The notes under the pieces were generated by a model. The model searched no databases and had not been told where the DNA came from. It saw nothing but the letters and a program-made list of their open reading frames with translations. Positions 43,401-46,400 of a DNA stretch of 64,000 bases are shown one piece after another. Positions within the stretch are counted from its first letter, which is position 1; each line of letters starts with the position of its first letter. A program made the translations under genes and the position numbers. The stretch comes from Saururus chinensis. Taxonomy: Eukaryota; Streptophyta; Magnoliopsida; Piperales; Saururaceae. The DNA lies in contig CP141149.1 of the NCBI GenBank assembly GCA_035235625.1, positions 28,637,753 to 28,701,752 on the forward strand. Direction: 5' to 3'.

Positions 43401-46400
43401 TCTTCGGGTCTAGAAAAAGTAGAATTCATCTTTTCTACCTCTCTATTAGAATTGTATGCAAGGTATCCTTTAATACTAATCCCTAAATCTATCAGCTTAA
43501 ACAGGGCTGTGTTTTAGCTATTTCATAGTTTTCAGATATAAGTTCTTACCAATACATCTTGAATTTGTCCTGTTAGGGAGCAAGTGGACTGGCTTGCTTT
43601 TGATTGGATTCATGTGGACTGTTTCCCGGGTTTGATTGATCTTGCTTGCTTGCTGCCCCAGAAGGAAGACAACCTTAGGATTCGAATTACGAAGGTATGA
43701 GACGCTGCACCAGAGACCGTCGTCTCCTTATCCATCTATTAGCTATTTATGCATGATTATGAACATTTGCCTTCCAACTGTAAACAAATTAATTTGAATG
43801 CAGTTTTTGTTGGCGGTATCTAAGTTGTTTGGTGACCAGTACACGAACCACATCATGCTGCCTGTGTTCTTAGTAGCTGTCGGGGATAGTGCTGATTTGA
43901 AAATGTTCCCATTGTCTACCGAGCCTAGAATCAGAGGTATGAAACAACGTCAGATGAAAAATTTTCAGTGTAAAGTGAAGCTCTTTGTTTGTTCCTGATA
44001 CGCAAATCTGAAAAGATTCCCAGAAATTTCACTTGTGTAATTCATGTAACTGTAATTTGCAGGCTTGCGACCAAAAACTGCATTAGCTAGGAGGCTTGCT
44101 ATTATGTGTGTCCTTCCACTTCTATTTGCGGGTATTTTGGGTAGGAGGAGCGAACAGCTTGTAGAGTACTTGAGAAAAATGTTAGTACCAAATTCCGTGA
44201 GTGATGGCTCCTGGTCTACCTACCAAACAGCTGAGCTTATTGATGCTTTTCGCTTCCTTTGGTTAGTCATCAATTCTGGTCAGATCTAGTTTATCTTTTG
44301 AGGGCCATGAAAGCTAACGGCATTTTCCTTTCTTCAGTACCTTTGAAGAACATCATGGAATCATTTTTAATATATTATGGGAGATGGTAGTTAGCTCCAA
44401 CATTGACATGAAGATCCGTGCTGCCAATCTGTTGAAAGTCCTTGTGAGCTTCACTATTTTAATAATTTTTCCGTTCTATGTGAGTTACCTGTGCATGCTT
44501 AATGAATTTATTGTTCCTTTGGATAGGTCCCACATGTTGATGAGAAAGTTGCTTCAACTCAGGTTTTGCCTGCCCTAGTTACTCTGGGATCTGATCAAAA
44601 CCTCAATGTAAAATATGCAAGTATAGATGCCTTTGGAGCCGTTGCTCAGAACTTCAAAAATAACATGGTGATTTTTGTTATTGTTTTAAAAATGTGTACT
44701 TTGTGTAATTGTCTGTGCACCATGGCTGACAAGCATTTGTTCATTTAGATTGTTGATAAGATACGTGTCCAGATGGATGCTTTCTTAGAAGATGGCTCTC
44801 ATGAAGCCACTATTGCTGTTATCCGTTCATTAGTGGTGGCTGTGCCAAATACGACAGAAAGGTTGCGAGATTATATCCTCTATTACTGAAGGTTTTCAGT
44901 TTCGTTTAGTTGTTACACAGAAAAAATTTGATATGGTCACGTTTGAATTTTTCAAGTCAAAATCTGTTTCAAGATTATCAAACACGGTTTATATACCAGG
45001 TTCAGCCATTGTCCATGTCCGGTTGACTTACCCTTTTAAAACGCACTCATGTGTCTTATTTCAGAAACTGAAAAGAAAAGTGAAAGTCTCAGTAATTTAA
45101 CCTTTTTGTGTGAAAATAGAATTAGTCTTCTGGATGTTAGGACTTTTCTATGAAACCGTTACTTTTTTTTTTCCATCTTTCCCCGGGTTTTTTCTTCTTT
45201 TCTTAGTTTCCTCACTTCTCTTCCTTCTTGGGCAAATAAGGCTTAAAGGAGGAGATGAACTTACTCTACTTTTAACATGCATTCAATGATTCAATTATAA
45301 AAATAACTCCTTGTGGATTAATTTACTGTCCGCACCAGGGGAAAGCCAAACCAACCTGCATGGATGGTTGACCACTCGACCAAAGTTTCAGGTCCAACTG
45401 GTCCACTAAGATTTAGGGGAATCAATTTGCCCAGCACTAAATTGACTTCCTGGTGAACCTGCAGATATTGTTCACGTTTGAATTGGGTCAAGGACTAAGT
45501 TTATTTGTTCTTTTCATGGGTCAACTTTAACAGAACAATAATTTGTTTCCTTGACATTTTGCACATCTTCTATCCAAGATTTTCCATCTCACATCAGTTT
45601 CAATTCAAGGAAGTGATATCATGCGCCAACGTGAGAGAGCAAATGCCTTTTGTGAATCTATCCGTGCATTGGACGCCACAGGTTTGCTCGTCTTTCATGT
45701 ATTGTTCCTTCTTTTTTCTGTATTCTATAAACTATTTTGAGCCGTTTTTTATAACACTGACCATATCTGGTCAGACCTAATATGCTGAAGGATAAGCTTC
45801 TTTTTGAATGTCCAAAATGTTTCCACGAAGTAATTTTTCAGAATCTGTTCAGCTTGGTCTTGACTTGTTCTGTTGTAAACTGATGTTTGATTATTGCACA
45901 CCATTATGGCTATATAGGGTACGGTTCTAATACTGTATATGTTTGTGGGATAAAACTGTGTATATATATGTTCATGGGTGCATTCAACCAATTCCCACTC
46001 GTCCAAGTTATTGTCAGTGCCTTTATCCTGCTTTTTGATGCAGATCTTCCAGCAACAAGCGTTCGAGAGTACCTCTTACCAGCAATTAACAACTTGCTGA
46101 AGGACCCTGATGCACTTGATCCAGCACATAAGGAAGCCTTAGAAATTATAATGAGAGAAAGATCTGGCGGTACATTTGAAACTATTAGTAAAGTGATGGG
46201 TTCTCACCTCGGCATTCCATCATCAATGAGCAGTTTGTTTGGCGAAGGTGGGCTTCTAGGCAAAAAGGAAATCACAGATCACCCTCCTGAACCAATTACA
46301 TCTTCACCACTGCCAACGACCCCACAGGCCCTAGCAGAAGATACGAGATTTAGACGTATCATGAGGGGAAATTTTGGTGACATGTTGAGGGGCAAAGGGA

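Follow-up and report, generated by a model that had tools for sequence, protein, structure and literature searches.

Minor introns and RELCH-like proteins in plants

U12-type introns are described by the published consensus sequences ATATCCTT at the 5' splice site and TCCTTAAC at the branch site (PMC2831892; PMC2426677). AT-AC introns account for 26% of the U12-type introns in Arabidopsis, 23% in soybean, 22% in rice and 13% in maize (PMC7367187). In the Arabidopsis representative annotation, 81 of 119,097 introns are of the AT-AC kind, and an AUGUSTUS ab initio set contained zero AT-AC introns, with the result that one gene lost an exon (PMC5716242).

The Arabidopsis gene At5g16210 encodes a HEAT-repeat protein (PMC7548069) that has an N-terminal LisH domain and a coiled coil and is a homolog of KIAA1468 (PMC6294250). 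Nothing in the main texts of the literature searched ties RELCH, KIAA1468 or AT5G16210 to minor introns; intron lists in supplements may well include this intron in a relative.

Structure and identity of the gene

A gene with one AT-AC intron was rebuilt in a 64-kb stretch (the window) of the 516-Mb genome of Saururus chinensis, which is assembled in 11 contigs. The gene contains 20 exons and 19 introns, and its joined exons form a single open frame of 1184 codons with a stop at the end only. GT-AG ends are found in 18 of the 19 introns, and intron 18 alone has AT-AC ends. The features of the gene and of its 3' part are as follows.

37358-46432, plus strand: coding span of the RELCH/TGNap1-like gene (20 exons, 1184 amino acids)
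44749-44872, plus strand: exon 18, ending in phase 1 (GAT-T)
44873-45564, plus strand: intron 18, AT-AC, 692 nt, phase 1, assigned to the U12 type from its motifs, join, scores and a chance test
45565-45681, plus strand: exon 19, 117 nt, phase 1 at both ends
46044-46432, plus strand: exon 20 with the stop codon

The length of exon 19 is divisible by three, and the same six bases, ATCTTC, open exons 19 and 20. An Rfam scan of the window gave no match at this gene; the sole match over the cut-off is a tRNA gene at 12588-12668 on the minus strand (59 bits).

The encoded protein carries HEAT repeats, as expected of RELCH and TGNap1 (PF02985, E 5.9e-9, over the Pfam cut-off), and an N-terminal LisH match (ARMC9_LisH, residues 153-178) lies below the cut-off at E 0.17. 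The HEAT repeats, the length and the literature on At5g16210 fit a RELCH/TGNap1-like gene, the known members being matched by description. The initial annotation had called the gene a plant RELCH homolog. A HEAT-repeat protein of this size agrees with that description, but the name RELCH/TGNap1 is provisional.

All 20 matches of the spliced protein in its own genome fall on this same gene on contig 10, and no paralog that could show another intron class was found there. No relatives were confirmed in the viral_contigs and genome_contigs scans. Among solved structures, 22 sequences matched at E up to 1, the best being the HEAT repeats of the PP2A A-subunit (1.5e-5). Only three matches, all to importin beta-3 and weak (E 0.11-0.12), cross the intron 18 junction, and the structures therefore provide no test of that junction.

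Splice signals of intron 18

Intron 18 is almost certainly a genuine U12-type AT-AC intron of this gene that would be removed by the minor spliceosome. Its splice signals are as follows.

44873-44881, plus strand: 5' splice site ATATCCTCT
45547-45555, plus strand: branch site TTCCTTGAC, with the branch A at 45554
45563-45564, plus strand: 3' terminal AC

The donor ATATCCTC agrees with the published consensus at 7 of 8 bases, the exception being position +8, where C replaces the consensus T. This C costs one pair with U11 and one with U6atac. The donor pairs at 6 of 8 positions with the U11 (+3 to +10) and at 5 of 7 with the U6atac (+4 to +10) of the same genome. In the ordinary introns 1 and 8, pairing with U11 reaches just 3 and 4 of 8 positions. 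In U12-type introns a branch site of the form TCCTTRAC is expected some 10-15 nt before the 3' end, and in intron 18 the branch A of TTCCTTGAC lies 10 nt before the final base at 45564. All 8 of its 8 pairing positions match the element GTAAGGAA of the U12 found in the same genome, one of them as a G-U pair, and the A is bulged. With an approximate, hand-composed weight matrix for donor and branch site, intron 18 scored 11.4 of a maximum 16.4 for the donor and 13.1 of 13.7 for the branch site, and the donors of 17 other introns (intron 12 left aside) scored from -20.7 to 1.2.

The intron ends in AC, and its removal joins RLRDYLLSKIFHLTS, in which GAT-T meets AT-CTT and the frame is kept. The coordinates, donor, branch site with its distance of 10 bases, terminal AC and frame-restoring join given in the initial annotation are all borne out by the sequence and the rebuilt gene. 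The class, the boundaries and the frame effect that it proposed are likewise backed by the chance test and by the minor-spliceosome components of the genome, both described below.

In the proposed course of splicing, U11 and then U6atac would pair with the donor at the 5' end of intron 18, and U12 would pair with the branch site, bulging the A at 45554. The minor spliceosome would then ligate the two exon ends, so that exons 19 and 20 are read in frame. We infer that this takes place in the plant from the motifs, their spacing, the frame and the presence of snRNA genes with matching pairing elements.

Minor-spliceosome components in the genome

Matches to U12 (one), U11 (three) and U6atac (nine) were identified in the genome, each over its own cut-off. 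U4atac gave no match in this genome, and the same search matched no control genome either. A candidate found with a separate U4atac pattern was taken as chance, the pattern giving one match and its reversed control also one. The zf-U11-48K family matched once in the genome, within a 447-codon open reading frame that encodes a U11-48K-like protein; this family also matched 1 of 14 control genomes, that of Sulfolobus acidocaldarius.

The 120 bases upstream were inspected for 7 of the 13 snRNA matches. The element GTCCCACATCG, which we take to be the plant USE, is present exactly in five of these and with one mismatch in L015, and it is absent in L013, a U11 match. It is followed by a TATA-like element in L010, L011, L012, L014 and L015, and L016 is ambiguous in this respect. 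The loci L010, L011, L012, L014, L015 and L016 are U12, U11 and U6atac genes with plant snRNA upstream elements, and L013 resembles a U11 copy that lacks the upstream element.

Chance expectation

The strict composite was defined as ATATCCTY followed by a TTCCTTRAY whose A lies 8-14 nt ahead of AC, at an intron length of 60-3000. On both strands of the window, ATATCCTY occurs nine times (five plus, four minus) and TTCCTTRAY six times (four plus, two minus), and exactly one strict composite is formed, which is intron 18. Simulating the window 150 times with a first-order Markov model gives an expectation of 0.19 strict composites per 64 kb on both strands. For the 138 open bases that run from the first base of exon 18 to the read-through stop, the expectation falls to about 2e-4, with no demand on the frame yet included.

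The donor by itself is unremarkable: among the 18,052 GT/AT sites in the window, six others outscore it and four tie with it. A looser composite ([AG]TATCCTY followed by TYCTTRAY 8-21 nt before AG or AC) finds a partner for 5 of the 14 [AG]TATCCTY sites in the window, three of the five on the minus strand. What gives the case its weight is the strict motif pair, placed at the exact coding join by which a long reading frame is restored.

Alternative readings and annotation

A major-spliceosome intron with shifted GT-AG ends, for example from donor 44862 (GTTGCG after AAG) to acceptor 45613, would yield a slightly shorter protein. There are 35 pairs of a GT or GC donor with an AG acceptor that preserve the frame to the natural stop, but each of them drops no fewer than 15 of the 209 residues encoded by exons 18-20, GTTGCG is a poor donor, and nothing would account for the near-consensus U12 signals; we regard this reading as very improbable. 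Still harder to credit is removal of the AT-AC intron by the major spliceosome. U2-type AT-AC introns are known from sodium channel genes, but they have G at +5 (PMC2831892), whereas intron 18 reads TCCT from +4 to +7, with C at +5, and its branch site matches the U12 pattern almost perfectly.

It is also unlikely, though less so than either of these, that intron 18 is often retained or exon 19 often skipped and that the intron serves mainly as a switch, giving a protein that ends at codon 1021 or lacks exon 19. Reading through 44873 leads to a stop at 44887-44889 and leaves 1021 codons. The phase of exon 19 and the shared start of exons 19 and 20 would let an AT-AG hybrid splice reach exon 20 and skip exon 19 in frame, and slow removal of U12-type introns is a published idea (PMC2426677). 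The sequence carries no sign of regulation, and removal of intron 18 as an ordinary U12-type AT-AC intron is preferred.

A model of this gene that allows GT-AG introns only will be wrong at the 3' end. The initial annotation expected that a gene finder would truncate the protein here. Read-through would do so, but mis-annotation need not, because the 35 frame-preserving pairs are also available; truncation is thus one of several possible annotation errors at intron 18. Its statement that AT-AC introns are rare is correct for introns as a whole, but such introns are routine in plants, as the Arabidopsis count and the shares in four plants given above indicate. Since plants have dozens of them, intron 18 looks real but ordinary. 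It alters no principle, but it is one more candidate target of the minor spliceosome, in what looks like a membrane-trafficking gene.

Introns 12 and 8

A second intron of the gene has a donor of the U12 type.

43463-43576, plus strand: intron 12, GT-AG, candidate U12-type intron or intron in transition; its donor GTATCCTTT is a perfect one of the U12 type, its branch site weak

U12-type GT-AG introns are expected to have the donor GTATCCTT, and the donor of intron 12 conforms to it. It is the best-scoring donor among the 18,052 GT/AT sites in the window and pairs at 7 of 8 positions with U11 and at 6 of 7 with U6atac. The best branch score in intron 12 is 3.7 of 13.7, for GTTCTTACC, which has C in place of the branch A; CTTGA, 14 nt from the intron end, is a weak branch candidate. 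The base at -1 is G, which is under-represented at this position in U12 GT-AG introns (PMC7367187). Conversions from U12 to U2 are reported to be commoner toward the 3' part of genes in Arabidopsis (PMC2426677).

Intron 12 may be a second minor intron, or an intermediate in U12-to-U2 conversion. The statement in the initial annotation that the other 18 introns are GT-AG holds for the rebuilt gene, but it masks this U12-type donor. The chances are about even that GT-AG intron 12 belongs to the minor class together with AT-AC intron 18, or is an intron in conversion from U12 to U2 beside it, and that output of the protein depends on the slow minor spliceosome at two points. As a candidate intermediate between intron classes, intron 12 can be compared across relatives.

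Intron 8 (42226-42345) has the U2 donor GTAAGTTTA, yet a U12-like branch motif, TACCTTAAC, lies 22 nt from its end. A branch motif alone therefore does not settle the class of an intron.

Comparison with known systems

The gene resembles TGNap1 (At5g16210) of Arabidopsis and RELCH (KIAA1468) of mammals in encoding a long HEAT-repeat protein; it differs in that the LisH match is below threshold, and the likeness is one of description. Intron 12 shares the perfect donor with U12-type GT-AG introns but lacks a good branch site and has G at -1. Intron 18 agrees with the U12-type AT-AC introns of plants in its ATATCCT donor, its branch site TTCCTTGAC with the A 10 nt before the last base, its AC end and the minor-spliceosome parts of its genome, and C at +8 of the donor is the only difference seen.
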